From the NCBI GenBank assembly GCA_900318265.1, contig ONKA01000031.1:1-38432 (forward strand): a stretch of 38,432 nucleotides of DNA, in the 5' to 3' direction. Made by a program: the position numbers and the translations under genes. The DNA comes from an uncultured Bacteroidales bacterium. Its GTDB lineage: Bacteria; Bacteroidota; Bacteroidia; Bacteroidales; F082. The notes beneath the pieces were generated by a model that was given only the letters and a program-made list of their open reading frames with translations, searched no databases and was not told the DNA's origin. Positions 11,904 to 26,237 of the stretch are shown here, piece by piece. How positions within the stretch are numbered: position 1 is the first letter of the stretch; each line of letters opens with the position of its first letter.

Positions 11904-12072
11904 CGTTGTGCAAGAGTTCGTATTCCAAGGTTTCTTGTGGCGCATAGCTCCACTTGGTGCAGGTGTTGCAGTGGCGCGGTGCGCGGCGACGGCCAGGCAC
12001 TTCCTTGGTCTTACAGGATGAGGCTACCAGTATCAAGCCTAACAATAACAATATCAATTTTTTGTTTTTCAT
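11893..12072 (-). CDS. Very small lipoprotein
   Basis: A 59-residue product. The signal peptide MKNKKLILLLLGLILVASSC puts the lipid-modified Cys at position 20, followed by a basic stretch (GRRRAPRHC), a CNTC pair and an acidic tail. The start is chosen at ATG 12072 because it forms an ATGA overlap with the stop codon of the M23 gene. A small lipoprotein in this position could be an envelope assembly factor, but the family is not recognised. Confidence 0.7.
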   Translation of the reverse strand: MKNKKLILLLLGLILVASSCKTKEVPGRRRAPRHCNTCTKWSYAPQETLEYELLHNDEG

Positions 12073-13487
12073 TGCGATAGCCAATTAGCTGGGTTCTGAC
12101 GTGTTTGTTCTTTCAACAATTCAAAATGCAATTCGGTCTTGCCCTCGGTCTTGTTCGTGTGGACGGTGCCGATGTTTTGTTTGGTCTTCACCTTGTCGCC
12201 GCGTTTCACCGTGACGTTTTCGAGGTTGGAATACACCGTGAAGTACTCGCCGTGACGGATGATGACCACCGTGTTGGCCCCCGTCAGTTTGGTGACGCTG
12301 GTCACCTCGCCATCGAAGACGGCGCGGGCTTTGGCGCCTTCGGTGGTGGCGATGTCGATGCCGTTGTTGGTCACCGTGACCTTGCTCGACACCGAGGAGG
12401 CGTGTTTGCCGTATGTTGAGGCGATGGTGCCACGTTCCACAGGCCAAGGCAGCTTGCCCTTGTTGTTGACGAAGTTGGTTGACAGGGTCTTTTCGGAAGG
12501 CGTCAATGCCATGCCTTTCTCCTTGGTTTTGGTCGTGGTGGTGGCGGTTGACTTGCCTTTGTTGGCGTTTTTCTTGGCTTCTGCCTTGCGTTTGCGCTCG
12601 GCTTCCGCATTGGCCTTCCTGATTTCTTCGGCGATGATGTCGTCGATGGCTTTTTGGAGCTTTTGTGTTTGCTGCTGCTTGTTCTTGATGTCTTGTTGGA
12701 GGTTGCCTTCCTTCTTTTTGAGTTTGGCCACTTGGGCGTTGAGTTCCTCCTTCTCTTTCTTCAAAGCTCCTTGTTGGGCTTTCTCTTCTTTTAGCAGGGC
12801 AGTCTGTTCTTCGCGCGCTTGTTGGCTGGCCTCCAAGGCGCTACTGATTTGTTTTTCGGTGGCGGCGATTTGGTCCATCTTCACCTTGCGGGCATCGGTG
12901 AACTGGCGGATGTAGCGCAGTCGGCTGAAGGCTTGGTTGAAATCCTCCGAGGCGAAGATGAAGCCCAAACGGTCGTAATGATTACGGTTTTTGTTGGCAA
13001 AGACGATCATCTTGGCGTATTCCTTTTGCAGCTTGCTGAGGTCGGAGTTGAGGCTCTTGATGTTGTTTTGGCCTATATTGATTTCCTCATCGAGGATGGC
13101 AATTTGTTCGTTGCAGGCCTTGATGAGTTGTTCGCGTTGCTTGATTTTGTTTTCGAGGATCGACACTTCGTTGAGGGTCATTTCCTTGTCCTTGGTGGTC
13201 TTTTTCAGCAATTGGTTGGCGTTCGAGATCTCCTTCTGCAAGGTGGTGATTTCGCTTTGCAGTTGCTTTTTGGACTTACCTTTCGTTTTTTGGGCGTAGG
13301 CGGAAGATGAAGTCAAAGCTAAGAAAAACAGAAAAATGAATGACAAACACCACCCCATGCCCTCATGGCGGAGGCACATCCGCCATCTCCTAAGCTTGAA
13401 GGCGAACCCCTTTTGCTTAGGAGATCGCGGGTCATGCCCGCGATGAGGGTTTGTATGGTGTTGTTCTATAATTATTCTATCGTTCAT
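12069..13487 (-). CDS. Murein hydrolase activator EnvC-like / M23 peptidase-domain protein
   Basis: A 472-residue protein. A hydrophobic signal core (LSFIFLFFLALTSSSAYA, residues 48-65) is followed by a long Lys/Glu/Gln coiled coil (about 70-300) and a C-terminal LytM/M23 domain (IASTYGKHASSVSSKVTVTN, VVIIRHGEYFTVYSNL, LHFEL). The HxxxD/HxH zinc ligands look degenerate (KVTVTNNGIDIAT, and LHFEL without a preceding active HxH). This fits an EnvC-type activator of amidases better than an active endopeptidase. Residues about 11-43 are encoded by the 88-bp palindromic element at 13361-13448. GTG/ATG choices therefore matter: ATG 13487 overlaps the upstream stop (ATGA), but ATGs at 13379 (inside the element) or 13358 (just after it) would give a normal signal peptide. 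Confidence 0.88.
   Translation of the reverse strand: MNDRIIIEQHHTNPHRGHDPRSPKQKGFAFKLRRWRMCLRHEGMGWCLSFIFLFFLALTSSSAYAQKTKGKSKKQLQSEITTLQKEISNANQLLKKTTKDKEMTLNEVSILENKIKQREQLIKACNEQIAILDEEINIGQNNIKSLNSDLSKLQKEYAKMIVFANKNRNHYDRLGFIFASEDFNQAFSRLRYIRQFTDARKVKMDQIAATEKQISSALEASQQAREEQTALLKEEKAQQGALKKEKEELNAQVAKLKKKEGNLQQDIKNKQQQTQKLQKAIDDIIAEEIRKANAEAERKRKAEAKKNANKGKSTATTTTKTKEKGMALTPSEKTLSTNFVNNKGKLPWPVERGTIASTYGKHASSVSSKVTVTNNGIDIATTEGAKARAVFDGEVTSVTKLTGANTVVIIRHGEYFTVYSNLENVTVKRGDKVKTKQNIGTVHTNKTEGKTELHFELLKEQTRQNPANWLSQ
13361..13448. repeat. 88-bp three-armed palindromic element, copy A
   Basis: Terminal inverted repeat CCTCAT/ATGAGG. Arm 1: GGCGGA/TCCGCC. Arm 2: CTCCTAAGC/GCTTAGGAG with a large loop. 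Arm 3: TCGCGGG/CCCGCGA with a 5-nt loop. It has the same length as copy B at 25569-25656, and every stem difference between the copies is compensated. It lies within the 5' part of the M23 gene. Confidence 0.9.
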
Positions 13488-14035
13488 TGTCTTAGTTTGA
13501 TTCGGAATCGTTCCATCTTATCGCTGATCTTCAGCGGGAAGTTCGTCTTTTCTTCCAGTTTGATGTTTTTATATCTCACTTTTGCGGCGAGGTTGCCCAT
13601 GACGAAGGTCTTGAGTAGCACCGTCTGATTCTCAACGGGCGGGAGACCTTCGTTATTGTCCAAGAGCAAAGTTTGCACCAAAGGCAGACTGAGCGGCATG
13701 CCGAGTTGGGCGGAAACGGTGTCTAAAGGTTCAGTCAAATAGGTCTTTTCCAGTCGGTTGACAATCCAGACGGAGTCGTTGCTGAACTTGGCGCGCATCA
13801 CTTCCACGCCCATGGTGGCGGTTACGCTGAGCCACACGAGGCTGTCCTTGCGTATCCGCAGTTGCCCTGAGAGGTCGTCAAAGGCCACGCCATCGCCTTC
13901 GGCTTGAATGTCAAGGTTGGAGGTCATCCATTCGAAAGCTTGAGGTTGGGTGGGCACGACGGTTTTCTTGCGCGAGGCACAAGATGAGGCCATGAGGACC
14001 AGCACTAGGAGTGCTATTTTTGTCAGCGTTTTCAC
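13484..14035 (-). CDS. DUF4292-type outer-membrane-associated lipoprotein
   Basis: 183 residues when started at GTG 14035: VKTLTKIALLVLVLMASSC, lipid-modified Cys at position 19. The body (FEWMTSNLDIQAEGDG, LSGQLRIRKDSLVWLSVTA, MGVEVMRAKFSNDSVWIVNR) is the LolA/LolB-like beta-sheet pattern annotated as DUF4292 in Bacteroidetes. An upstream in-frame stretch to 14134 has no hydrophobic logic and is rejected as coding. Its stop overlaps the M23 start (ATGA), so the two are coupled. A TATTTTTG-type -7 box lies at 14084-14091, but no -33 is visible. Probable role: lipoprotein or envelope biogenesis. Confidence 0.82.
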   Translation of the reverse strand: MKTLTKIALLVLVLMASSCASRKKTVVPTQPQAFEWMTSNLDIQAEGDGVAFDDLSGQLRIRKDSLVWLSVTATMGVEVMRAKFSNDSVWIVNRLEKTYLTEPLDTVSAQLGMPLSLPLVQTLLLDNNEGLPPVENQTVLLKTFVMGNLAAKVRYKNIKLEEKTNFPLKISDKMERFRIKLRQ

Positions 14036-14124
14036 AAAGAAAGGTTTTTCAAATACCGTTCCAAAAAAACTTCTATTTCGCTGCAAAAATAAGAAAAATC
14101 CTTGAGTATGCCATAGATACAAGG

Positions 14125-14154
14125 AAAGCCTCAACCAAAAAGGGTTGAGGCTTT
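14125..14154 (-). terminator. Hairpin terminator after the T9SS cargo remnant
   Basis: A 12-bp perfect stem AAAGCCTCAACC (14125-14136)/GGTTGAGGCTTT (14143-14154) with a 6-nt loop, 23 bp beyond the stop codon at 14177. It closes the cargo block before the DUF4292 gene. Confidence 0.75.
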
Positions 14155-14176
14155 CGATGCTTTATTTCATAGAAGG

Positions 14177-14817
14177 TTATTCTTTCACTACCTTCCGCAC
14201 GCACTTACGTCCTTCCTCATCAGTGACATTGACGAAATAAATCCCTGCAGGCAGCGCGGCCAAGTCTATGCGGAGCTCGTTGACCTCGCCTTGTATGCTG
14301 AGCACCTTTTGCCCGAGCATGTTAAGTACCTCGGCCTGCCGCAGGTTCTCGCCTGTGATGGAGACGAAGCCTGTGGTAGGGTTGGGGTGGAGGGCACGTG
14401 ACAAACAAACGGATTAAATATTACATAATTGTATGCCTCAAACCAAGCAAATATGTAATTGTCATTTTCGATTTGTTTTCGGGCTGCAAATCGACTTTGG
14501 CCTTCATCATCTAACCAAAGATAAGTATGCCCCCAATGGACAATGTTAGGAATAGTGTCGGTGCCGTCATTATCCAACCAAGTTATCTCCCAGTCATTTG
14601 ATGCAACAATTTCTGGCCAATACCCCGTACTTGTATAGTCCATTTTTAGACAAATATCTCCATTGCCATCATCGTCAAAATCAACCCAAAGTCTAGTGTA
14701 TTGGTCGGTGATACATGAATCTGGTTCAAAATCAACAATAATAATATCACCTTGTTGGGCTTTCATGGCAAATGAGGACAACAATAAAATGGCTAAAGTG
14801 ATTAGTTTTGTTTTCAT
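14177..14817 (-). pseudogene. T9SS cargo protein, frameshifted before its C-terminal sorting domain
   Basis: ATG 14817 begins a good signal peptide (MKTKLITLAILLLSSFAMKA), followed by about 115 residues of acidic beta-rich sequence (RLWVDFDDDGNGDICLKMDY). At about 14400-14410 the frame must change: the first frame runs into out-of-frame codons to 14266. The other frame gives a classic type A T9SS sorting domain: HPNPTTGFVSITGE, NMLGQKVLS, LPAGIYFVNVTDEEGRKCVR, stop at 14177. The usual linker before HPNP is missing, so this looks like an out-of-frame fusion by deletion rather than a simple indel. Only a truncated secreted product without a sorting signal would be made. Confidence 0.8.
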
Positions 14818-14840
14818 GATAGTGATTGTTTATATGTTGG

Positions 14841-15190
14841 TTAGTTATCGCTTGGACAGTCTCCTGTCAGGCCGGTACAATTGTAAAACGCTCCAGGCAT
14901 GATTTCCACAATGGAATTGGGTATCACAAGCGAGCCGGTAAGGGACTGGCAGCCGAAAAAGGCTCTTTTCCCGATGATTGTAACGGTGTAGTCAACCCCT
15001 TCATGGTTCACGGTTTGTGGAATAACGAGTTCCCCTTGTGCCGCAGTGCCATCTACATGTCCGACAAGTATGACCTCTGTTGTGTTTGTATTATTGATGC
15101 TATATAGTAGATTTCCAGATAGGAAATCATAGGCCGAAGCTCGCATTATAAAGCTGACCAAAGCGAAAATCAAAATAATGAGCTTTTCAT
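14841..15190 (-). pseudogene. BspA-like leucine-rich-repeat surface protein, truncated and frameshifted at the start
   Basis: An open frame of about 110 residues contains BspA LRR_5 units (VTIIGKRAFFGCQSLTGSLV, IPNSIVEIMPGAFYNCTGLTG) and stops after CPSDN at 14841, where more repeats would be expected. ATG at 15190 begins MKS and meets a stop. Adding one A to the AAAA run at 15184-15187 would give MKKLIILIFALVSFIMRASA, a perfect signal peptide in frame with the repeats. So the gene has lost a base after its start and its 3' part. Full-length BspA proteins are long and carry a secretion signal at the C-terminus. Confidence 0.75.
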
Positions 15191-15231
15191 CTGTAGTTGT
15201 TTTTGTTTGTCGTTTACACCATTTTATTCTG

Positions 15232-15239
15232 CAAATATA
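15232..15239 (-). promoter_or_regulatory. -7 box of the BspA-like relic
   Basis: TATATTTG on the minus strand, 42 bp before the ATG at 15190, matches TAnnTTTG. No TTG is visible at the -33 distance. Confidence 0.5.
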
Positions 15240-15243
15240 AAAA

Positions 15244-17529
15244 TCATTTTGTAATAATTATCTTGCCTGTTTGCGAGTACTTTCCGCAACGAACGGCATA
15301 GGTATAAACCCCATTTGCCAAGCCGCGTAGGTCAAGCACCTTCTGCGATTCATTACCAGTCAGTTCGTAAGTTGCAACGGTAACACCGAGGGCGTTGGTT
15401 AAACTGATTGTGGCCGAAGTGGCTTTTGCAGGCAAAGTGTACGCTACCGTGGTCCATGTGGTGGCAGGATTGGGGCTCACGCTAGCCGTGAAGCCAAAGG
15501 CTTCGTTCATGGAGGCATCGGTTGAACCTTCAGAGCCCTTATTTCCGCCGTTGTTCCCTGGCATCGTGGGACAGTTGGAGGACGATATGTTTTCGTCTGA
15601 CCTTTCCATCAACAGGGCTTCTGCCATCGCCCTCGATGTCCCCGTCCCCGTTGCGGCAATGCCGTTCACCATGGCGATTTCGGCATCGGTCAGTTCGAGC
15701 ACGGTGCGGTTCTCCCTGTTGAGGGTTTGGTACATGCCTATCAGCCGCATGTAGTCCGCATGGTCGGCAAGGTCGTCACCTTGCAGGCCGTAGAGCTCGG
15801 GCAGCATGTTGGCCAAAGCGAAGGCATGGATGGAATCGCCTTCCTGCAAGTAGGAAGCCACAATCATCCTGTCAGACGCGAGGTTGTCCATGTTGGCGAG
15901 CCAGGTGCGAAGTTCGGAAAGGTCGGTGATACTGTCGAATAGGCAGCTGCGCACGATGTCGCCTGCCGCGAGGCGATATTCGTGGCTATATTGCGCCATC
16001 TGTCCGAGCAGGGCCGTGCGCGTGGTGATACCCAAAGCAATCTGCCTGAGCATTTCTGTCATGTAGGTGGGTAGCGGGTGTTCCTTGTTCTCCAGATAGC
16101 TGATAAGCGATTCATGCTGAAGCTCGTCAGGGTTGGCGGCGAGAATCTCGAACAGCACTGGGTCGGTGAACACGTCGTAACGGTCGGCGGCCGTGGTGAG
16201 TACCTCACCCGAGACATAAGGCGAAATCCCAAGCAGTTGGGAACGGAGTCTCCATATGTCGGAAGGCACGGCATTGTTGATGTCGGCCACTTGGGTGGTT
16301 GTGCTGCCACCGTCGATACGGCTCTCATAGAGCTGGAGCAAGCTATTATAGGTCGATCGAGCCGAGAGGTAGTCCGATGCCAAGGTCTCCTTCTCGGATG
16401 CCGACTTGGTGATTGAGCCGCCATTATAATGCGAATGACAGCTGTTGGTGCCTTGTGTACCGCTGGCACTTACGCCATAGACCAAAGTAGGCTGTTGGTT
16501 TGTTCCGTTGATGTCATAATAGTATACAATAACAGGGGTGCCATCGTTGTAGAAGTGGTATTGGCTTCCCGCGAAGGTGTTGCCGGCCGGTACTGTCCAC
16601 GTGCCTTGCGGTGAGGCAATTCCACCTGTGTTATCGTCCTTTAGCACACAGAAGTCTATAGCGTTACCTGAATTCGTGTTGCAAGTGTAGGTAAGTCCTT
16701 CTGTAATTAATGAAGGTGTATTGTTAACCACTTTATTGTCACCGATGGCCACGTTACCGCAGCGCAGGTTCAGAAAACTGTTGTTGTAAACGTCTGTGAT
16801 GCCTTTCGAGTTTACAATAACGATACCGTAGGGCGAGCCTGTATTGGTCGTTTTTGGGTGGAAGGTATTGTCCTCAATGAAAAGGCCTGGCATCTCAACA
16901 TAGATGCCGAAGTCGCAGTCGGAGCCACAGTCCACGGTAAAGTCGTTGTTCACAACTGTACCGCTGCCTGTATTGAAGACGTATAGACCTGTGGTGTTGT
17001 TCTCGAAAACAGAATTTCTGACAATAAACCCACATGCGCGGCTGCCGTCGCCGGAGGTATGAATGCCTTGGTAGAAGTTGGAAAACGAAGAGTGTATCAG
17101 ATTCTCCTCGGGACAGATACTCATGTTGCTTCCGTTGGGATGGTCGCAGTAGGAATCGACCAAAAAGCCTGCTGTATTTGCTTCAATACCCATGCAGTAT
17201 GGTGAAACGCCGTTGACGCTTCTCATGGCCGAGAAACTGCATCCCTTAATATAGAATCCACCGATATGTGCCAGTTCTACATGGTTATTGAAGGGTTCTG
17301 TCCCTAGGTAGTCTTCGTCTATCGTAAACGTGCATTTGTGCAAGTGACCGTTGTAGACGAATGTCCCACCTGATGGGCTGTAGGTGTAATTGAGAGCACG
17401 CACGGCCTTGGCATTGTTGCGGAAGGTGGCATCGGTGGCATGGATGATGCCGCCAGTGGTGCTGTAATCCCCAGGCTGCCACAGTTCCACGGCGCATTTG
17501 GCGTTCTCAATAATCGCCCCGTTCTTGAG
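15244..17529 (-). pseudogene. T9SS cargo with right-handed beta-helix, missing its N-terminus
   Basis: The frame is open from just after an in-frame TAA at 17530-17532 and gives about 760 residues. It begins LKNGAIIENAKCAVELWQPG in mid-domain, with no signal peptide; the first possible start is a GTG at 17490. The N-terminal half has parallel beta-helix features (repeated NN..F.. steps such as VRNSVFENNTTGLYVFN). A helical region follows (ETLASDYLSARSTYNSLLQL). The C-terminus is a type A sorting domain: VSPNPATTWTTVAYTLP, ISLTNALGVTVATYEL, LANGVYTYAVRCGKYSQTGK. Without a signal peptide it cannot be exported. The 5' edge abuts, out of frame, the 3' end of the papain-like gene, so a deletion probably joined two genes. 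Confidence 0.82.
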
Positions 17530-18901
17530 TTAAATTGTTATTTCCGGTAATGACATATCCAAAACCATTATTACCCCATGCTGATCCCCAACTGTTTTTA
17601 AATAGCCAACAGTTTTGACCAATATAAGGGCTGTTTGGCCCTATTGTGATATGGGAATAGGAAAGAATAGTATCAGTCCCATCATAAACTATATCGCCGA
17701 TGTTTAGAAGTTTAAACCCACATACGGCCATGTAATGCCATAAACTTATGACCTTTATACAAATCGAACCATTATTGATAATCGTCTGCTTGATATTGTC
17801 CGTTCCAACACTAATGTTTGAAGTATTGTTAAAAGAAACACGTTCGTTTGGGTTTGAACAGATGTTGTTACATGGGACTTTTGAATTCACATAAGGAAAA
17901 CAATTCTCAGATACGACCCCGTTATTGAGCAGATAATTGATGGCGGTTGGCATGGAACCACCTCTAGCTTGGCAATCGCCAGCATTACTACAAGAAAGCA
18001 GTTGTTGTTCTGACAAATTATAATCAAGGTGTCGGTTAAAATATAGGTTTATCACGTTTTCTGCGGCACTTATCGGAGCAAAAGCCCAACAACTATTACA
18101 TGAGAATTGGTTTTTTGCTACTGTAGTCCAATTTTGACCATGCCGGTCTCGCCAATCAAAATCATCAACATAGGAACTGCGTTCCCGGTTGTCGAGATCA
18201 TAGGGCTAAAGGTCGAAAACTCCACCGATATAGTATTCAAACCCTTGGAGATTCGGTATCTCATTGTTTTCGTTCTTAGAAAGAATGGCTTTCCTTTGAT
18301 CATAAGTCATTTGTAATAATGAAGTGTTTCCAGCAACCCAGATCTTGTTCTCTTGTCTTAGTCTATGGTTGATGCATTCAAGAATAATTGAATCCTGAAT
18401 GGTTTTATTCAGCAATTTGTCAGCATAATACTGTTCGGGTGTTTTCGTGTTATATTTATCGGAATAATAAATGTTTTCGATTGCGCATACGGCATTGCCA
18501 ACTTCAATTTTAAGATGTGACGTTGCGATATTGAAAAGCGATGTGGTTTCATGGGCGTATTGTCTAATATTGAACATTGTGTCGATCATGTTCTTGGGAT
18601 AATATGCATCAAAGACCAAATATTCCGTGTCCGTGTCCTCGTCAACAAGGATCAAGCGTACGTAACTGTCATAATCGAACAGCTCCATTGCTGCATCAAC
18701 GGCAAGACCCGAAACTCTTGTGCCTTGTGTGTTGTAAACGAGCGATGATTCATAATATATGCTATCAAGAACAATCCGATGAAGGCATGTTGTGTCTCCA
18801 ATGTTTTCCATGCGAAAGCTGTCGTTGTTTTGGTCTGATGCTTGGCAATTCAGAAACGCCATTGTCATCGCCAAAGCAATAGAAAAGATGGTTTTATTCA
18901 T
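17507..18901 (-). pseudogene. Secreted papain-like (C1A) cysteine protease interrupted by an in-frame TAG
   Basis: Two open segments lie in one frame, separated by a single TAG codon (18206-18208). The first (231 residues) has a signal peptide (MNKTIFSIALAMTMAFLNCQA) and a propeptide-like end (KIWVAGNTSLLQMTYDQRKA). After TAG the frame continues PYDLDNRERSSYVDDFDWRD, then NQFSCNSCWAFA, with the oxyanion Gln and nucleophile Cys. Next come LLSC, the catalytic His in WHYMAVCGF and the Asn in FKNSWGSAWG. All catalytic residues lie downstream of the stop and no start codon precedes the Cys in frame. The 3' end runs out of frame into the beta-helix gene. TAG ends none of the intact genes here, but neither does it occur inside any of them, so it is best read as a nonsense mutation. 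Confidence 0.85.
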
Positions 18902-18905
18902 ACGA

Positions 18906-19820
18906 TCAGTTTTTGATGAATTTCAAGCAACTTACGGATTTTTCAGACTGGAGAACGGCTATATAGAGACCTTGTTTCAAGTCGTTCAAGTCCAAGTGAT
19001 CATTACAGAGGTTTCCGTTGAAGAAAACCCGCTGCCCCATGAGATTGAAAATTGATACCGATGGACAGGGATCCAGATGTCCAGTAAAACGAAGCATTGA
19101 ACGGGAGTTGTCAAAGAACAGGTTTGGATTCTCGTTTTCTTCGACTGAATCGTAACTGTCAATTATGCAAGTGTAGTATTTATGATTTATGTAAAGAATT
19201 TCTCCATGGTCTTTATAACAAAGGAGTTGGGGCCAAGAATATCCCCCAATTTGTTGACTTTGACAAGAATTCAAAAAGCCCTGTAAGGCACCGATTCCTT
19301 CGATCCACGTGTTTAAAAACGCCCAGTTCTGATAGCCTTCGTCCCTTGAGCTGACATAGTAACAGTTTCGGATTGTGTCCCCAATAAACTTGCTGACAAT
19401 GGAGTCAACACGAACATACACCCCTCCCCATTCGTATTGACCATAATACATAAAGGTCGAATCGCCAACGCCAAGGTCAAAATCGTATAACAAATAATCA
19501 TCGGTTTGATCAATTGGCCTGTAATAGACCTTGTTGGGTATTTCTCTAACATAGCCGATTAATTCATAATCGAGATTGAAAAGACTGGAAAATTTTTCAT
19601 ATAGCCTTTTGTATGACACCCCGTCAAGTGTAGTGTCGCCAACCATCGTTAGAGTCTGAGTCGTATAATACCAGATTGGGTAACCCTGAATGACAAATAA
19701 AGTGTTGTATTCAATGCTGTCCTTGACAACACTTAGATGTGTGTTTTGTGCTTTCGCCGTGCCAGCCAATGCCAGCAGCAAGAAAAGTAGGGTTTTCGTT
19801 GTAATGTTTGTTCTTTTCAT
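18906..19820 (-). CDS. T9SS cargo protein, paralogue A
   Basis: A 304-residue protein. Signal peptide MKRTNITTKTLLFLLLALAG, cut after TAKA. One copy of a domain of about 200 residues contains YYRPIDQTDDYLLYDFDLGV, YYVSSRDEGYQNWAFLNTWI, EGIGALQGFL and LLCYKDHGEILYINHKYYTC. The C-terminal sorting domain reads SVSIFNLMGQRVFFNGNL, LKQGLYIAVLQSEKSVSCLKF. It is secreted across the outer membrane by T9SS and probably attached or released at the surface; the domain function is unknown. It starts 12 bp after its paralogue's stop and is co-transcribed with it. The stop lies 4 bp before the papain-like gene start. Confidence 0.85.
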   Translation of the reverse strand: MKRTNITTKTLLFLLLALAGTAKAQNTHLSVVKDSIEYNTLFVIQGYPIWYYTTQTLTMVGDTTLDGVSYKRLYEKFSSLFNLDYELIGYVREIPNKVYYRPIDQTDDYLLYDFDLGVGDSTFMYYGQYEWGGVYVRVDSIVSKFIGDTIRNCYYVSSRDEGYQNWAFLNTWIEGIGALQGFLNSCQSQQIGGYSWPQLLCYKDHGEILYINHKYYTCIIDSYDSVEENENPNLFFDNSRSMLRFTGHLDPCPSVSIFNLMGQRVFFNGNLCNDHLDLNDLKQGLYIAVLQSEKSVSCLKFIKN

Positions 19821-19832
19821 AGCTATTGTTTT

Positions 19833-21362
19833 TTATTGTTTTACGAACTTCTGAATGAATTGTCTTCCGCTTTCGTCTGTGACGCTGACGAAATAAACGC
19901 CCGATGGCATGCCCGAAAAGTCAATGTCTAACATGTTGTTTATAGTCTTGCTAATATATATGACTCTTCCCATCAAATCAATAATCTTGATTTGTTTTGC
20001 CCCCATCAAAGTTTCCAAAAAATCGATGTGCAACAAACCATTGACCATTACTTTAACAGTCGCCAATGCAGATTCGGTGTTATCATCGACGGTCAACACC
20101 TCGTAGTCGCAGTCAACGTTTGATGTGATCAATGGAATGCCATTTTCAGTGTAACAGCGAATGGAGCCGTTCGTACACGAAGGCTGACCTTGGGTTTCAA
20201 ATGGAAATACAGAATAATCCATGCCGATACCTTCAATAATATTGGTAAAATATAAATTCCCATGTACAGTTGGTGCTGTTATAAACACCTTTCTGAAACC
20301 ATCAATCACCCCAAAATTCATGTAAGACACTGCCTGTACATAGATGGTATCTTCGTATTTCGGTGCGTACCACCATCCTCCTGGCTTTTTTCCGAAGTCA
20401 TAGAGCAGATAACGCTCTCCGTTTTCCACCTCAAACACCTGCTTCCCCTCCTGGGTGATGTAGTAGTATTCCGTGTGGGGGTTGACTTCGCCGTTGCAGT
20501 CAAGGTTTTGGAAAAACTCTATTTCCTTGCATTCCCAGCCGTTTATCTCAATTGTTCGTAACGAGCGGAATCTGTCGTAGGTAATGCCGGTAATGTCAAA
20601 TTCTTCCCTGTAATAGCGTTCGTAATACCATTCGGCTCCAACAGGGGCAAATTCCACTGGCGTATTGTTGGTGTCCACAAAACAAGTGTCATAGTTTGGA
20701 TTCATATACATTAAATCCCCGTTTTCATGGTAGCAAAGGAGTTCGTGAAGCGTAATGCCTCCCGCTGCAGTGACGTGACAACTATACAGCAGACCTTCTG
20801 TGGCTCCGATTCCCTCTATCCAGGTGTTAAGCCATCTCCATTCAGCATTTGGCACCATACTTTTGGAACTTACATAATAGACTCTCCTTTCTATTCCTGC
20901 AATATATTGAGTGTTTATGGAGTCGATGCGTATAATGACCTCGTTGCTCGGATTTGGCAACTGACACCAATGCATTGATGCAGTGTCGCCGACATTCATG
21001 CCGAAGTCATAGAGAAGGTAAACCGTATCTTGGTCGATGGGTTGGTAAAACACCTTGCCTTCGGGTTCTTCCCTGATGAGGCCATAAAGCGAATATTCCT
21101 CTGTGCTACCATGCCAATAAGGGGCTTCCGATGATATTTTCCGCATCACCTTCTTATAATGCATATCGTCCACCACAGTGTCTCCTTCAAGTTGGAGGTT
21201 CTCAGTAATGCGGAGCCAAGTCCATTGCGATGTTGCTTTCCAAACGATGTTCCACTCGGCATTATCTTTGACTACGGGGAGATAATCTTGCGCCTTCGCC
21301 GTGCTTGCCATTGCCAGCAGCAAGAAGAGAAGGGTTATTGTTGCAATGTTTGTTCTTTTCAT
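19833..21362 (-). CDS. T9SS cargo protein, paralogue B (two-domain)
   Basis: 509 residues from ATG 21362, chosen because the leader GCTATGAAAAGAACAAACAT matches paralogue A. Two further in-frame ATGs upstream (21389, 21431) fall at or before the promoter and are rejected. Signal peptide MKRTNIATITLLFLLLAMAS-TAKA. The first domain matches paralogue A (FYQPIDQDTVYLLYDFGMNV, WLNTWIEGIGATEGLLYSC). A second, diverged copy follows (YLLYDFGKKPGGWW, NIIEGIGMDYSVFPF, SIRCYTENGIP). It ends in a type A sorting domain (IIDLMGRVIYIS, MPSGVYFVSVTDESGRQFIQ). Shared signal peptides and domain order point to tandem duplication. The function is unknown. Confidence 0.85.
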   Translation of the reverse strand: MKRTNIATITLLFLLLAMASTAKAQDYLPVVKDNAEWNIVWKATSQWTWLRITENLQLEGDTVVDDMHYKKVMRKISSEAPYWHGSTEEYSLYGLIREEPEGKVFYQPIDQDTVYLLYDFGMNVGDTASMHWCQLPNPSNEVIIRIDSINTQYIAGIERRVYYVSSKSMVPNAEWRWLNTWIEGIGATEGLLYSCHVTAAGGITLHELLCYHENGDLMYMNPNYDTCFVDTNNTPVEFAPVGAEWYYERYYREEFDITGITYDRFRSLRTIEINGWECKEIEFFQNLDCNGEVNPHTEYYYITQEGKQVFEVENGERYLLYDFGKKPGGWWYAPKYEDTIYVQAVSYMNFGVIDGFRKVFITAPTVHGNLYFTNIIEGIGMDYSVFPFETQGQPSCTNGSIRCYTENGIPLITSNVDCDYEVLTVDDNTESALATVKVMVNGLLHIDFLETLMGAKQIKIIDLMGRVIYISKTINNMLDIDFSGMPSGVYFVSVTDESGRQFIQKFVKQ

Positions 21363-21400
21363 AGCTATTGTTTTTTTGGTGGATTTCATTTGGCTCGCCA

Positions 21401-21431
21401 CAAAAATATATAGATATTTTGCTTTTCGCAA
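21401..21431 (-). promoter_or_regulatory. Promoter of the T9SS cargo pair
   Basis: Minus-strand TTG (21431-21429), 20 nt, then TATTTTTG (21408-21401), 39 bp before ATG 21362. It probably drives 21362 down to at least 18906. Confidence 0.75.
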
Positions 21432-21554
21432 CTTTTTCCTATTTTTTCAGTTGAAAAATGTTCCCAGTTTTTGAAATTCTTGTTATTTTGGCACTTTATG
21501 TAATAATCTGTTTTTTTTTAAGCTTTATGTAATATTTTGAGTTGATAAAGAATA

Positions 21555-21876
21555 CTAATCCGTCACCGTAAACTCACCGTAGTATTCATCCCCGTTGGGG
21601 AGTGTGAAGGTGACAATGTAGTCGCCTGTGTTGGTGATGTAATACAGATAGCCATTGGGCGTTAGCATGGACAGATAGTCAACCGTGGCACCTGTGGCTG
21701 TGGTTACCTCAATGGTCACCTGCCCGATGTTTTCGGTGAAAACCACGGTGAGCGTGTGACCATAAAATGTTGCTAACACCATCCATTGTACTGATAGCAT
21801 AGGCACCCTGCCATAATGTCGATAGAAGAATACCGAGCAGCAAGGCTACATGTTTTAGACTGAAGTGTTTTTGCAT
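21555..21876 (-). pseudogene. Small secreted DUF3244-like protein, frameshifted
   Basis: ATG 21876 starts a signal peptide (MQKHFSLKHVALLLGILLST, then LWQGAYA). The mature part continues ISTMDGVSNIL and then meets nonsense sequence. A frame offset by one base, taken up at about 21775-21790, gives ATFYGHTLTVVFTENIGQVT, PNGYLYYITNTGDYIVTFTL and GDEYYGEFTVTD before TAG at 21555. The second part has the beta-sandwich pattern of DUF3244 proteins in Bacteroidales. Domain assignment is by pattern only. A sequencing error cannot be excluded, but no long homopolymer lies at the shift. Confidence 0.65.
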
Positions 21877-21982
21877 ATCGATTATGATTTTGAATTTCGT
21901 ATGCAAATCACGGTTAGAAAAAAACAATAGTCAAGAAAAACAAAATTTGGATTCTTTGGATTTTAAATCAATAACTTGATTT

Positions 21983-23878
21983 TCAATTAGTCATCAACTC
22001 GTTGAGTATAATAGCTATTCTTTCTTCCTTGTGGAAAACATGCTGCAAACGCTTTTCTCGCTCCCACACGGTCCTATAGGAAAGCTGTGTCATGACGGCA
22101 ATCTGTGCATTGTCCAACCCGAGGAGGCACAAATAGCAATACATATAATCTTTCTCTTTCAATTCGGGATGTTGTAACCTTAGCTTTTCAAACAAAGGAG
22201 CGTAATGCGCCAAAGCCGCTTTCTTGAGTTCGGCCTTTTGGGCATCAGTAAGAGTGATGTTTGCATAGGAAGATACAGGTACGGAAGATTTTATCGGATT
22301 GTTTTCATCATTACAAATGGAAAGAATGAGTCGACATATGGGTTCTTCAAGATAGTTCTCGGCTTGGCGAAAGTGATTCTGTTTTGGTGCCTTATCATCA
22401 TACCGTTTTTCCTCTTTTTCTTTCAATGCAGCGTTGCTACGCTTCAACCTTCCAGACAGTGCAGCCTGCTGCATCTTATGGGCATGGCGTTCGGTTTCCA
22501 TTTGAACTTCCAGTTTTCGTTTGCCTCGCTTGTTTTTGCAATAGAAGAAAAAGACGGCCAACATCATGGCAAGCATTCCACCCATGATAACAAGGACACG
22601 TTTTGTGTGTTTCATTGTCTCTTTGTGATGTTGCTTTTCATGTGTTTTATCCTTGAAGACATCGTACAATTTTGTCAATTGCGATTTCAAGCCACTACTG
22701 TTTTCTTCCTGATTGGCAAAGGGAACCAAAAAGCTGGCAAATTCATGCGATTCAACGTCGTTTCCTTGTGCTTTGCAGATTTCCACCAACCATTCGGCTG
22801 CCTGTCTTTTTGCTTCCGTATTTTGTGTTTGATTGTAAACCTTGTTTAAGTAAATCCATGCCGAATCAAATTGTTTCTCATAATAGTAGATTTCACCAAT
22901 AATAGCACATCGCGAACAATATTCCTTTTCGTTTTCTGCTTCGGAAAGCAAATGGTGCAATTCATTTAAGGCTATATCTTTTTGATCATTTGTCCTATAT
23001 TTTAAATAAACTTGATGAGTGGCTATATCCCTGTATAATATAATGGTTGTATCATTTATCGCAACAGATGCTTTATGATAGTATTGATATGCACTGTCCA
23101 ATTCATCCATCATATCATAATGAGAACCTATCTTATTCAAAACCCATGCTTGATACCATGAAGGAGAATCTTGTTTTTTGTAATATGTGAGGGATATTTT
23201 TGCAAAATAGATGGCTTGTTCGTGAAGATATAGGTCGGAGAATAAATCTGTCAATCTGGTATAGGTATAAGCCATAAACAATGACTTATTCCCAACCAAT
23301 TCCTTTTCTTTATAATGTTCTTCCATCACCTCCAAGGCCTTCAGGTATTCCTTGCAGGCCTCCACCACGCTGTCTTTTTCATAATAACCCACGCCGTTGA
23401 TGTAGTGGGCGCGGGCGTCGAGGAAAACAACATCGTCGTTTGGTTTCGGAGATTGCGGGTCAAGCCCGCAATGACGCCAAAAGGCGTGGGGACGGTCGCC
23501 TAAGGCAAGGGTAAGGCTGTCGAAATAGGAAACCGCCTGCAACAGGTCCTCGCGATTGGTCTGTTTGTAATCGTTTTTGTACAGCAATTCGGAAACCAGC
23601 AACTGGGTGTAATGGTTATTGAATGTCTCGTTTGTAGAGACGGTGTGCACACCGTCTCTACCATCGTCAGACAAATAATCCATCAACACAGCCAATGCGC
23701 TGTCGGGCTGGCGCCATATCAGGCTGTCGATGGCCTGCAATTTTGGGGACGGCCCTTCGACAGGCTCAGGGACCTGTTTTATCTGAGACGTGCCATGGCG
23801 CGTCTCTACAAGGTCGTTGTCAGGCCGGGTGCAGGCCGCCATCAACAAAATGCATGCTATGCCCCATCGCAGTCTCAT
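21983..23878 (-). CDS. TPR protein with central membrane segment and C-terminal HTH (one-piece signal transducer)
   Basis: 631 residues from ATG 23878, which overlaps the upstream TPR gene stop by one base (TGATG). A lipoprotein-like signal ends in LLMAAC (Cys16). The periplasmic part has TPR-like helices (about 150-400), then a membrane segment (VIMGGMLAMMLAVFFFY, about 430-446), a coiled coil, and a C-terminal HTH-like end (LGLDNAQIAVMTQLSYRTVW, about 585-605). This is the Bacteroidetes family of TPR regulators with LuxR/MalT-like tails, often next to secreted-protein genes. Residues 24-42, 73-82 and 135-145 are encoded by three different palindromic repeats read in frame (ETRHGTSQ... PEPVEGP; GRDGVHTVST; RHCGLDPQSPK). 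It may control the adjacent T9SS cargo genes. Confidence 0.8.
   Translation of the reverse strand: MRLRWGIACILLMAACTRPDNDLVETRHGTSQIKQVPEPVEGPSPKLQAIDSLIWRQPDSALAVLMDYLSDDGRDGVHTVSTNETFNNHYTQLLVSELLYKNDYKQTNREDLLQAVSYFDSLTLALGDRPHAFWRHCGLDPQSPKPNDDVVFLDARAHYINGVGYYEKDSVVEACKEYLKALEVMEEHYKEKELVGNKSLFMAYTYTRLTDLFSDLYLHEQAIYFAKISLTYYKKQDSPSWYQAWVLNKIGSHYDMMDELDSAYQYYHKASVAINDTTIILYRDIATHQVYLKYRTNDQKDIALNELHHLLSEAENEKEYCSRCAIIGEIYYYEKQFDSAWIYLNKVYNQTQNTEAKRQAAEWLVEICKAQGNDVESHEFASFLVPFANQEENSSGLKSQLTKLYDVFKDKTHEKQHHKETMKHTKRVLVIMGGMLAMMLAVFFFYCKNKRGKRKLEVQMETERHAHKMQQAALSGRLKRSNAALKEKEEKRYDDKAPKQNHFRQAENYLEEPICRLILSICNDENNPIKSSVPVSSYANITLTDAQKAELKKAALAHYAPLFEKLRLQHPELKEKDYMYCYLCLLGLDNAQIAVMTQLSYRTVWEREKRLQHVFHKEERIAIILNELMTN
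23448..23476. repeat. Partial copy (29 bp) of the 88-bp element inside the TPR-HTH gene
   Basis: Identical to the last 29 bp of copy B, covering arm 3 (TTGCGGG/CCCGCAA) and the terminal ATGACG. On the minus strand it encodes RHCGLDPQSP in frame. Confidence 0.85.
23634..23661. repeat. 28-bp perfect palindrome, GTAGAGACG family
   Basis: GTAGAGACGGTGTG is followed immediately by its exact reverse complement. It lies in frame in the TPR-HTH gene (encodes GRDGVHTVST). Confidence 0.9.
23751..23774. repeat. Single arm of the CCTTCGACAGGCTCAGG repeat
   Basis: The same 17-bp core as both arms of the element at 26154-26221. In the TPR-HTH gene it encodes PEPVEGP in frame. Confidence 0.8.
23785..23806. 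repeat. 22-bp palindrome, GAGACG...CGTCTC
   Basis: GAGACG-T-GCCATGGC-G-CGTCTC with a single mismatched pair. Its outer arms match the GTAGAGACG family; it encodes ETRHGTS in frame in the TPR-HTH gene. Confidence 0.75.
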
Positions 23879-25689
23879 CAGTTTTTCAATTTCTGTTCCA
23901 AATCCTTCGAGTAGCCTCCCGCTTGCTTGGCCTTGTTCCAGTATTCCTTGGCTTCGCTTTCCTTGCCGAGCTTGAACAGGATGTCGCCATAGTGTTCCAG
24001 GTTGGCGCCCGAAGGGTTCTTGTCGAGGCTGAGGCATTTCTTCATCTGCTTCTCGGCATCCTTGTAGCGACCAAGCTTGTAGAGCACCCAGGCATACGTG
24101 TCGAGGTAATAGACATTATCGGGCACCAGTTCATTGGCGTGGATGGCCATCTGCAAGGCCTCCTCGAGTCGCTCGCCTTTCAACGAGAGGTAATAGGCAT
24201 AGTTGTTCAAGACCAAGGCGTTGTCGGGGTCGTTGCGCAAGGTGCGGTCATAGGCATCAAAGGCTTTTTGTTCTTCACCTTGTTGGTGGTAGATGTCGCC
24301 CAAGAAAGCGTCGAAGTTGGCCATCTGCAATTTGTCGGAGGTGTATCGTCTGCCTTTCTCTAAATAGGTGATAGCATCGTCGTAGTTTTCCAATACTGAG
24401 TTGGCTACGCCTGCATACCAATAGAACACGGGCTGCATGGGATAGTATTTCAAGGCAGCCACGGCATGGTCGCGCACGGCCTCGTTCTCGTTGAGCCGCG
24501 ACTCGCTGATGATGAGGTTTTGCCATGAGCGGAAGTCGGTGCTGTCGATGGCCAAGGCTTTCTGGTGCAGCTCTTTCGACTTTTGGGCGTTCTCGTTCAC
24601 CATGTAATAGGAGCCAAGGACAAGATAGCCCAACTTGTTGTCAGGGTGGGTCTCTATGAAGGCATCGCCGCATTGCTTGACCTGCTCATTGATCTGTTTC
24701 GATTGGTTGTTTTTCTGCATCCAATAGTCGTAGATGTTGGCCTTGGTGGTGAGGTCGAGGCTTTTGTTTCGGATGACGGCAAGCAGTTCGTTGAAGGCCT
24801 TATCCATCTCGCCTCCCTTCTCGTAAAACTCAAGGAGTGAGATGTGGATATACGGGTCGTTGGGGTTGATTTCCTTCATTCTCTCGTAGGTCTTCAAGGC
24901 TTCCTTGTCCTTGCCGGTTTCGGCATACACCTGTGCCAACATGCCATAATAGCGCACGTTTTCAGGGTTGTGCTCGATGAGTTTCTCAAGTTCCGAAATT
25001 ACCTTTTTGTTGTTGCCTTGGCGTTTGTATACGTTGAGGCGCTGCTCGGTGATGAACTCGTTTGCCCCGATTTGCTGTTCCAGCAGGTCCATCTTTTCCA
25101 CGGCCTTGTCATATTTTTCGGTCACCAGATAGGCATCGATAAGCTCGCTGAGCATGTCGGGGTCATCGGGGTATTTTTTGGTCAGGTCTTCATACAGATT
25201 GATGAACTTGTCGTATTGGTCCAGGTTGCGGTAAAACAGTCCGAGTCGAATCTGGTACCATTTGTTCTCGGGTTCGAGTTTGACGGCCTTTTGGATCATA
25301 TTGAAGGCTTCTTCTATGCGACCGGCATTGGAGTATTGTTCGCTCAGCTCAAACATCGAGGCGGCATCGTCGGGCATGAAGCGCAAGGCTTGTTCGAAGT
25401 TGCGGATGGCGCCTTCGGTGTCCTCGCGGTATTTGCTCTGCAGGCCGTTCGAGAAATAGATGGCGTTCTTTTTCTTGTCGGGTTTGCCTTCGTATTCCGA
25501 ATCCATCTGCTGGGCGAAGCCGTTCAAGGAAAACAACAATAACAGAAGCCAAGAGACTTTTTTTATACCGTCATGGCGGAGGCACATCCGCCATCTCCCA
25601 AGCATAAGGGAAAGTGCTTCTTGCTTGGGAGATTGCGGGTCAAGCCCGCAATGACGGAAAAGAGTATGGTTTATCATTCTTTTTTTCAT
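23878..25689 (-). CDS. Tetratricopeptide-repeat envelope protein
   Basis: 603 residues from ATG 25689, 5 bp after the dut stop. An N-terminal signal core (VSWLLLLLFSLNGFA, about 45-59) is followed by about 13 TPR units to the C-terminus, for example GAIRNFEQALRFMPDDAASM and DALVLN-type helices (NALVLNNYAYYLSLKGERLE). No enzymatic domain is seen; it probably works as a periplasmic or lipid-anchored scaffold. Residues about 12-41 (RHCGLDPQSPK...MCLRHDG) are encoded by element copy B. The normal signal peptide is thus displaced, unless translation starts at the element's internal ATG (25587). From memory, Bacteroidales place dut, this TPR gene, DUF4292 and M23 in one operon. Here about 10 kb separates the TPR gene from DUF4292. 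Confidence 0.87.
   Translation of the reverse strand: MKKRMINHTLFRHCGLDPQSPKQEALSLMLGRWRMCLRHDGIKKVSWLLLLLFSLNGFAQQMDSEYEGKPDKKKNAIYFSNGLQSKYREDTEGAIRNFEQALRFMPDDAASMFELSEQYSNAGRIEEAFNMIQKAVKLEPENKWYQIRLGLFYRNLDQYDKFINLYEDLTKKYPDDPDMLSELIDAYLVTEKYDKAVEKMDLLEQQIGANEFITEQRLNVYKRQGNNKKVISELEKLIEHNPENVRYYGMLAQVYAETGKDKEALKTYERMKEINPNDPYIHISLLEFYEKGGEMDKAFNELLAVIRNKSLDLTTKANIYDYWMQKNNQSKQINEQVKQCGDAFIETHPDNKLGYLVLGSYYMVNENAQKSKELHQKALAIDSTDFRSWQNLIISESRLNENEAVRDHAVAALKYYPMQPVFYWYAGVANSVLENYDDAITYLEKGRRYTSDKLQMANFDAFLGDIYHQQGEEQKAFDAYDRTLRNDPDNALVLNNYAYYLSLKGERLEEALQMAIHANELVPDNVYYLDTYAWVLYKLGRYKDAEKQMKKCLSLDKNPSGANLEHYGDILFKLGKESEAKEYWNKAKQAGGYSKDLEQKLKN
25569..25656. repeat. 88-bp three-armed palindromic element, copy B
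   Basis: Terminal inverted repeat CGTCAT/ATGACG. Arm 1: GGCGGA/TCCGCC. Arm 2: CTCCCAAGC/GCTTGGGAG. Arm 3: TTGCGGG/CCCGCAA with loop TCAAG. Same length and orientation as copy A, within the 5' end of the TPR gene. Confidence 0.92.
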
Positions 25690-26132: not shown

Positions 26133-26153
26133 TGGTGTTTCTTTTTGACATGG

Positions 26154-26221
26154 GGCCTTCGACAGGCTCAGGCACCCTCCACCACAGTATGAGCAAAGGT
26201 CCCTGAGCCTGTCGAAGGGCC
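26154..26221. repeat. Palindromic element with CCTTCGACAGGCTCAGG arms in the dut leader
   Basis: A 17-bp perfect inverted repeat (26156-26172 and 26202-26218) around a 29-nt centre. It lies between the probable dut -7 box and the dut ATG, so it would be transcribed as a strong leader hairpin. Confidence 0.88.
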
Positions 26222-26237
26222 GAACTTCATTAAAACG

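Follow-up and report, generated by a model that had tools for sequence, protein, structure and literature searches.

CGTC-tagged REP dimers of an uncultured Bacteroidales bacterium and a candidate GIY-YIG nuclease partner

The window analysed here, a 38,432-nucleotide stretch of DNA that is one whole contig of a 2.98-Mb genome (50 contigs, 89% complete) of an uncultured Bacteroidales bacterium, carries two copies of an 88-bp palindromic element and raises the question of what kind of repeat this is, and which enzyme may move it. An earlier note had placed the copies at 13361-13448 (A) and 25569-25656 (B), with three substitutions compensated in the stems and a 29-bp fragment at 23448. The coordinates and the length of 88 bp are correct for both copies, and the sequences differ as claimed: CCTC/GAGG in the closing stem of copy A against CGTC/GACG in copy B, T-A against C-G in arm 2, and C-G against T-A in arm 3. 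The fragment is one half-unit within a 32-bp match. The parts of these elements are:

13361..13390, + strand: copy A, left CGTC-type REP unit, arm 1, with the CCTC tag variant (sequence; for tag variants compare the available part of PMC3733652)
13391..13419, no strand: copy A, spacer with complementary ends, arm 2 (sequence, folding, covariation)
13420..13448, - strand: copy A, right REP unit, inverted, arm 3 (sequence, folding, covariation)
25569..25598, + strand: copy B, left CGTC REP unit, arm 1 (sequence, folding)
25599..25627, no strand: copy B, spacer with complementary ends, arm 2 (sequence, folding)
25628..25656, - strand: copy B, right CGTC REP unit, whose exact 29-mer is present in many phyla (sequence, folding, sequence scan)
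23445..23476, - strand: REP monomer, a single half-unit (genome similarity search)

Judged by its sequence, the element is a head-to-head (HH) heterodimer of CGTC-tagged REPs, with CGTC or CCTC on the outside. Each half features a CGTC/CCTC tag, an 8-bp stem opening with AT, a loop of 5-6 nt (5 in the right and 6 in the left unit of copies A and B) and a short tail. The survey of CGTC repeats by Di Nocera, De Gregorio and Rocco (2013, PMC3733652) describes, in the part available, stems of 8-9 bp with AT first, loops of 4-5, and CGTC altered to CCTC or TGTC in many repeats; HH dimers predominate there, and heterodimers do so in some CGTC families. Our match is to this textual description of the superfamily, as distinct from its four consensus sequences, and extends from the tag, the 8-bp AT-opening stems, the HH heterodimers and the complementary spacer ends to the presence of dimers in larger palindromes, intragenic copies and a spread over several phyla. 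Among 37 aligned dimers (16 from this genome and 21 from congeners, picked by similarity to copy B, with divergent copies missing), the pair adjoining TCAT is GC in 24, CG in 11 and unpaired in 2, which fits a CGTC/CCTC tag, and the AT pairs of both arms are invariant. CGTC lies outside, as in HH dimers, in 72 of 95 neighbouring REP pairs less than 200 bp apart at loci drawn from several phyla. The element belongs to a known kind of repeat; the new part is the probable enzyme behind this kind. The survey, in the available text, reports no associated transposase gene and leaves the mobiliser open.

The closing stem with three arms that had been proposed for both copies is the minimum-energy fold of copy B, but only an alternative fold of copy A, the minimum-energy fold of which is a single long hairpin with arm 1 pairing with arm 3. 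Stability was high in all four folds (two copies, both strands), with z = -6.0 to -7.8 relative to dinucleotide shuffles and none of 200 shuffles as stable in any of them. Over the 37 dimers, 90.5% of the cells of the named structure are paired (84.6% when shuffled), 101 cells are changed on both sides (shuffled mean 43.1), and the covariation score of 0.220 compares with 0.118 in shuffles and 0.05-0.09 when partners are slid. One arm-3 pair is UA in 26 dimers, CG in 7, AU in 4 and broken in none; because it stays intact in all 37 through three pair types, the hairpin structure is considered conserved, as the earlier note had proposed. Pairs in arm 3 are less often broken than compensated (11 double changes and 0 unpaired at columns 76-93, 6 and 1 at columns 81-88). 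Stem-breaking substitutions as frequent as compensated ones, which the note had named as evidence against selection on structure, are not seen in arm 3, but they do occur at the inner spacer pairs 43, 45 and 46 and at seven of the eight outer-stem pairs outside TCAT, columns 12-98 being the only pair there to escape an excess of broken over compensated cells. AT is found at all four junction corners in 37/37 dimers.

The compensated pairs could also have arisen otherwise than by selection, through swapping of unit types, gene conversion or templated correction of the palindrome during replication. The outer helix is variable in sequence, yet 80.8% of its cells are paired and double changes are found at 7/10 pairs; the arm variants (T, C or A before GCGG) look exchangeable; and the G019 orthologue of copy A is about 95% identical to copy B. 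By itself, such an origin leaves the same dimer architecture across phyla unexplained, and we give it a little under an even chance. It is compatible with the main explanation developed below and concerns only the upkeep of arm complementarity; unit exchange or templated correction may be the source of part of the covariation.

An RNA element had been named as another option; it might be a terminator, an mRNA stabiliser or a regulator. Both copies fold strongly as RNA, many dimer copies are intergenic, and G-U cells are twice as numerous as A-C cells in the outer stem (32 vs 16, a single pair contributing 15 of the 32). Against this, Rfam gave no match over the element, its sole match in the window being a tRNA, and G-U and A-C cells are about equally frequent in the spacer (17 and 18) and in the arms (2 and 1), so that the core stems give no sign of RNA-level selection, by what is a weak test of RNA in which rows were oriented by arm and the direction of transcription was unused. 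Moreover, copies lie in several reading frames within N-termini, and the dimer is patchily present within the genus. The proposal thus found little support, and a role as an RNA element appears improbable.

Among 35 matches in the genome, 16 distinct full-length dimers and nine single half-units were counted; a further match repeats one of the copies at the end of a contig, and one of the full copies is represented by two half matches, one for each of its ends. The exact 29-mer of the right unit of copy B was found by sequence scan in at least 115 stretches, assigned by record title to Bacteroidota, Desulfuromonadales, Campylobacteraceae, Sulfurovum, relatives of Endomicrobium, Hydromonas, Lachnospiraceae, Clostridiales, Gastranaerophilales, Chitinispirillales, Kapaibacterium, Balneolaceae, Treponema and Coriobacteriales. 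Many of these hosts are MAGs; Hydromonas duriensis DSM 102852 and Balneolaceae ANBcel3 appear from their titles to be isolates. Variant arrangements were also noted. A Coriobacteriales locus (L146, 4100-7000) carries several REP copies in the same orientation rather than as HH dimers, with no more than tens of bases between some of them. Dimers with additional sequence or an additional arm in one REP unit occur at L026, L207 (near 7200, the A site of G029), L211 and L213. At L014, L021, L022, L027 and L028 (about 1400-1650), the loop of a different palindrome family, made of degenerate TTGGC/GCCAA units, contains REP half-units.

Within the window, both dimers are embedded in genes:

12069..13487, - strand: signal-peptide gene whose N-terminal region contains copy A in frame (ORF reading, orthologue comparison)
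23878..25689, - strand: signal-peptide gene with copy B in frame N-terminally, MKKRMINHTLF-RHCGLDPQS..RHDG-IKKVSWLLLLLF (start chosen among in-frame ATGs)

Among the 20 A-site orthologues listed, the element is present in this genome (G000) and in G029, G002, G019 and G024 and absent from the other 15; since the site is empty in these, the dimer is an insertion, in agreement with the mobile palindrome envisaged earlier. At the close empty sites (G012, G031, G021, G030, G018, G022 and G033), the upstream stop overlaps the downstream start, as ATGA in six of the seven and nearly so in G012. The occupied genomes retain the ATGA with the element in frame behind it, and the start of the gene at 12069..13487 lies in the ATGA that overlaps the upstream stop. 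Core lengths from TCAT to ATGA are 84, 108, 96, 84 and 87, all multiples of three, and the frame is open in all five species despite these length changes, which include gains of 24 bp in G029 and 12 bp in G002. The flanks of the insertion have diverged. Over the 16 copies of this genome, the two flanks of a single copy are complementary to each other (permutation p 0/20000 at 10 nt and at 30 nt, and 0.0003 at 20 nt). Insertion of the dimer into pre-existing palindromes was considered as the cause and rejected, since the empty A sites, inspected by eye, contain no palindrome; for the same reason, the variable outer stem is probably part of the element. G029 and G019 lack a stretch of about 10 kb between A and B (14035-24037), and the sequences on either side of it nearly meet there.

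Copy B is in frame in 3/3 cases, and in all, 9/37 dimers lie in frame with an upstream ATG and at least 100 downstream codons, at five distinct sites. At sites A and B and in two lipoproteins (by sequence), the element precedes the hydrophobic stretch of the signal peptide; the product at the fifth site is presumably AroA-like, by resemblance. Such copies may be tolerated insertions that extend the N-region of the signal peptide or supply a new start codon, and they suggest that elements of this kind are built into exported proteins. Rickettsia palindromic elements likewise have CGTC ends and in-frame copies within ORFs (PMC3733652, available part); the in-frame sites seen here are N-terminal.

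As to the enzyme, the earlier note had pointed to a RAYT/Y1-type transposase. HH dimers resemble REPINs, and this genome has four Y1_Tnp genes, one of them RAYT-like by sequence reading. The REPIN/RAYT system is also alike in combining a non-autonomous inverted REP dimer with an enzyme gene flanked by cognate REPs, in family-specific pairing (for RAYT, the available part of PMC3733652 and general knowledge). However, it relies on a Y1 HUH transposase and a GTAG tag, as opposed to GIY-YIG and CGTC here. A motif scan of 1.5 kb on each side of the four Y1_Tnp genes found stray short matches and no full REP unit, and none of 67 ORFs at Y1_Tnp loci of relatives is bracketed by same-type repeats. 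With no REP association in this genome and 60 relatives, the RAYT/Y1 transposase was discarded as a partner, and the available part of PMC3733652 has no CGTC-flanked tyrosine transposase gene either. Movement of a REPIN-like element by such an enzyme seems very improbable indeed.

A different candidate emerged from the clustering of ORFs at the cross-phylum 29-mer loci, in which a small ORF family touching a REP in 6/6 loci is a GIY-YIG nuclease. Other recurrent gene families lie mostly at scattered distances from the REP and were rejected; two clusters of four loci also touch or nearly touch it and are, by sequence, genes with an N-terminal copy. PF01541 was searched in 60 relatives chosen regardless of REPs, and 70 of the matching loci, a part of the total, were used (L239-L308, some of them UvrC or second fetches). 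The median of a motif-free inverted-repeat score is 17.5 for the surroundings of 49 small GIY-YIG genes, compared to 9.0 in 395 control ORFs (other ORFs from loci around REPs and from site A; 95th percentile 12), and the score reaches 17 or more in 26/49 and 4/395 of them, respectively (Fisher test, 1.6e-24). In most GIY-YIG lineages among the loci listed, the gene is flanked on both sides by a repeat family particular to that lineage. Repeats of the same type occur on both sides of 57/91 GIY-YIG domains, a post hoc figure in that the nine repeat motifs were composed after viewing the GIY-YIG flanks, and of 9/1466 non-GIY ORFs (from 15/1472 other ORFs, 6 of the 15 being GIY-YIG themselves). 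At least one side carries a motif in 71/91 domains, and 20/91 have none of the nine nearby; in this set one gene is counted twice, its second entry falling outside the 57, and L365 is left out. The 57 comprise 36/56 domains from the PF01541 search of genus and order, 10/13 from the plasmid collection and 11/22 from REP-selected loci and genomes; without the REP-selected loci, the proportion is 46/69.

REP type tracks nuclease lineage: on a tree of the 71 labelled domains (the 20 without a motif label left out; few columns, and many forks unresolved), the nine types require 12 changes, with a minimum of 8 and a shuffled mean of 47.8, and 0/200 shuffles were as low. For the REP type of the window, CGTC points outward in 12/14 nearest upstream and 13/15 nearest downstream units (excluding L250, a second fetch of the L284 gene). 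Closed REP-GIY-REP units are present in 9 of the 12 loci with both sides known and span 385-535 bp, seven of them 405-445 bp, and the nearest upstream REP unit lies 9-48 bp from the nuclease domain in 13/14 loci and 169 bp in one. Such units occur in several phyla. Of 23 genomes with the 29-mer, 13 have a nuclease homologue at E 1e-8 and 10 have none; eight of the 13 homologues are 60-76% identical over most of the domain, and several are bracketed by that REP. At the same threshold no homologue was found in phages. In the plasmid collection, 32 records have one, including Sinorhizobium meliloti, Azospirillum lipoferum, Novosphingobium aromaticivorans and Neisseria, all CGTC hosts according to the available part of PMC3733652. 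The inverted-repeat score is at least 17 in 12 of the 14 plasmid loci examined out of these 32, with a 31-bp perfect inverted repeat in N. aromaticivorans, and no inverted repeat was detected at the other two (R. tumorigenes and Photobacterium plasmids). Only 8/14 lie above 23.5, the 95th percentile of a set of cross pairs in which a shared repeat family is common. The GIY-YIG genes between inverted CGTC REPs are a difference from the published superfamily, and the pairing revises the description of CGTC REPs without thereby excluding membership of the present elements.

One REP-nuclease-REP unit can be compared with its empty sites. In G029, the closest relative found, it sits between two genes that we take to be gmd and fcl, and their counterparts overlap or are separated by a few bp, with no REP between them, in G031, G012, G007, G028, G022 and G034; the remaining 12 of the 19 loci listed for this site have longer or different neighbours. 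At one locus of the same genome (L284, G029:C4:118192-121934), two GIY-YIG units with different REP types stand on either side of one gene, presumably fcl. The nuclease for the REP family of the window is present in G029. The assembly that contains the window (89% complete) has none of this type, and two of its other repeat families have theirs. The window-type nuclease (GCGG type) was found in 4/12 REP-rich and 0/24 other congeners (p 0.008), a count over 36 congeners that includes this genome and several incomplete MAGs, with REP numbers as lower bounds and part of the small GIY-YIG matches examined.

One of the families with its own nuclease is also represented in the window, by two exact copies and one diverged copy:

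23750..23775, - strand: second repeat family copy, GGTCCCTGAGCCTGTCGAAGGGCCG (repeat search, genome matches)
26153..26176, - strand: second repeat family, diverged copy (repeat search)
26197..26222, + strand: second repeat family copy (repeat search, genome matches)

Its 18-base core, CCTGAGCCTGTCGAAGGG, has 104 genome matches with at most one mismatch and a reversed control has none; its own GIY-YIG gene lies between inverted copies in this genome, at G000:C18:150438-150668. A further GIY-YIG lineage (L271, L276, L277, L281, L285 and L288) is accompanied by larger composite repeats with ATTCCC hairpins and GCGGCGGC arms, which suggests that the mobile units of other REP families may be more complex.

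The candidate protein matches PF01541 above cut-off, and this is the only domain that Pfam finds in 4/4 proteins. Residues Y8, Y19, G21, R29, H33, E66 and N85 are invariant in 20/20 sequences and presumably constitute the GIY-YIG catalytic set. The predicted fold (mean pLDDT 86), which in the window-type protein includes a C-terminal helix, gave UPF0213 1zg2 as the top Foldseek match (E 1.6e-3), followed more weakly by Slx1 (E 0.055-0.2); by sequence, the window-type protein has no PDB match below E 0.2. Stand-alone prokaryotic GIY-YIG proteins are described as a minimal Slx1-like form (Dunin-Horkawicz 2006, PMC1564403, available part), and those in UPF0213 (1zg2, 1ywl) are single domains of about 90-120 aa, as here. 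They differ in that the available part of PMC1564403 mentions no link to REPs, whereas the window type is so linked and has the C-terminal helix. Slx1 cuts branched DNA (PMC6902002, available part), and the weak likeness of the modelled fold to Slx1 fits a junction-shaped substrate without proving it.

GIY-YIG homing endonucleases that cut targets lacking them are known (PMC1564403, available part), and the nuclease genes might accordingly be separate selfish genes homing into CGTC REPs that are moved by other means. That some REP-rich genomes have no cognate nuclease in their assembly would be in keeping with this. Insertion into one REP would, however, split it, whereas here whole inverted units bracket the gene; the upstream spacing, the correspondence between REP type and nuclease clade and the six gene pairs that lack both the unit and any REP also argue against homing. 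Nor do the proteins look like homing endonucleases proper, which carry additional DNA-binding domains (NUMOD) or reside in an intron or intein: Pfam found no domain beyond PF01541 (4/4), and the annotated plasmid genes are separate CDSs between other genes. We regard homing into REPs as unlikely.

The explanation that we prefer is that the 88-bp dimer is the non-autonomous form and the REP-nuclease-REP unit the autonomous form of one mobile element. The autonomous unit would consist of inverted REPs, CGTC outside, with a small stand-alone GIY-YIG gene between them. Its nuclease may recognise the extruded REP dimer as branched DNA, a four-way junction with AT at its four corners, and cut at the base; copies would then spread by way of repair or replication, dimers without the gene would move in trans, and selection or templated correction would afterwards keep the arms complementary. 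Mobilisation by the nuclease is inferred from the arrangement and co-occurrence of sequences; the explanation as a whole is in our judgement quite probable. In literature that leaves out most subscription journals, no title or abstract connects GIY-YIG proteins with REPs, palindromes, inverted repeats or repeat families; the available part of PMC12306157 has no word beginning with nuclease or transposase; and a search with four REP sequence words gave one matching 11-mer, in four papers unrelated by title.

With somewhat more reserve, we favour the wider proposal that a large class of REPs, CGTC-tagged together with at least one untagged family, consists of mobile elements that owe their movement to cognate stand-alone GIY-YIG nucleases, which would act on the branched DNA that an inverted REP pair forms. 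This would be a form of REP mobility independent of RAYT, with nuclease and REP crossing phyla together. CGTC REPs are found in many phyla, and the candidate enzyme, with its family-specific repeats, offers a testable answer to the question of the mobiliser that the 2013 survey left open. It would also bear on the question raised in PMC1564403, in the part available, whether further GIY-YIG members "may function as molecular parasites". If true, it would provide a function for many small genes that are annotated only as "GIY-YIG nuclease family protein".
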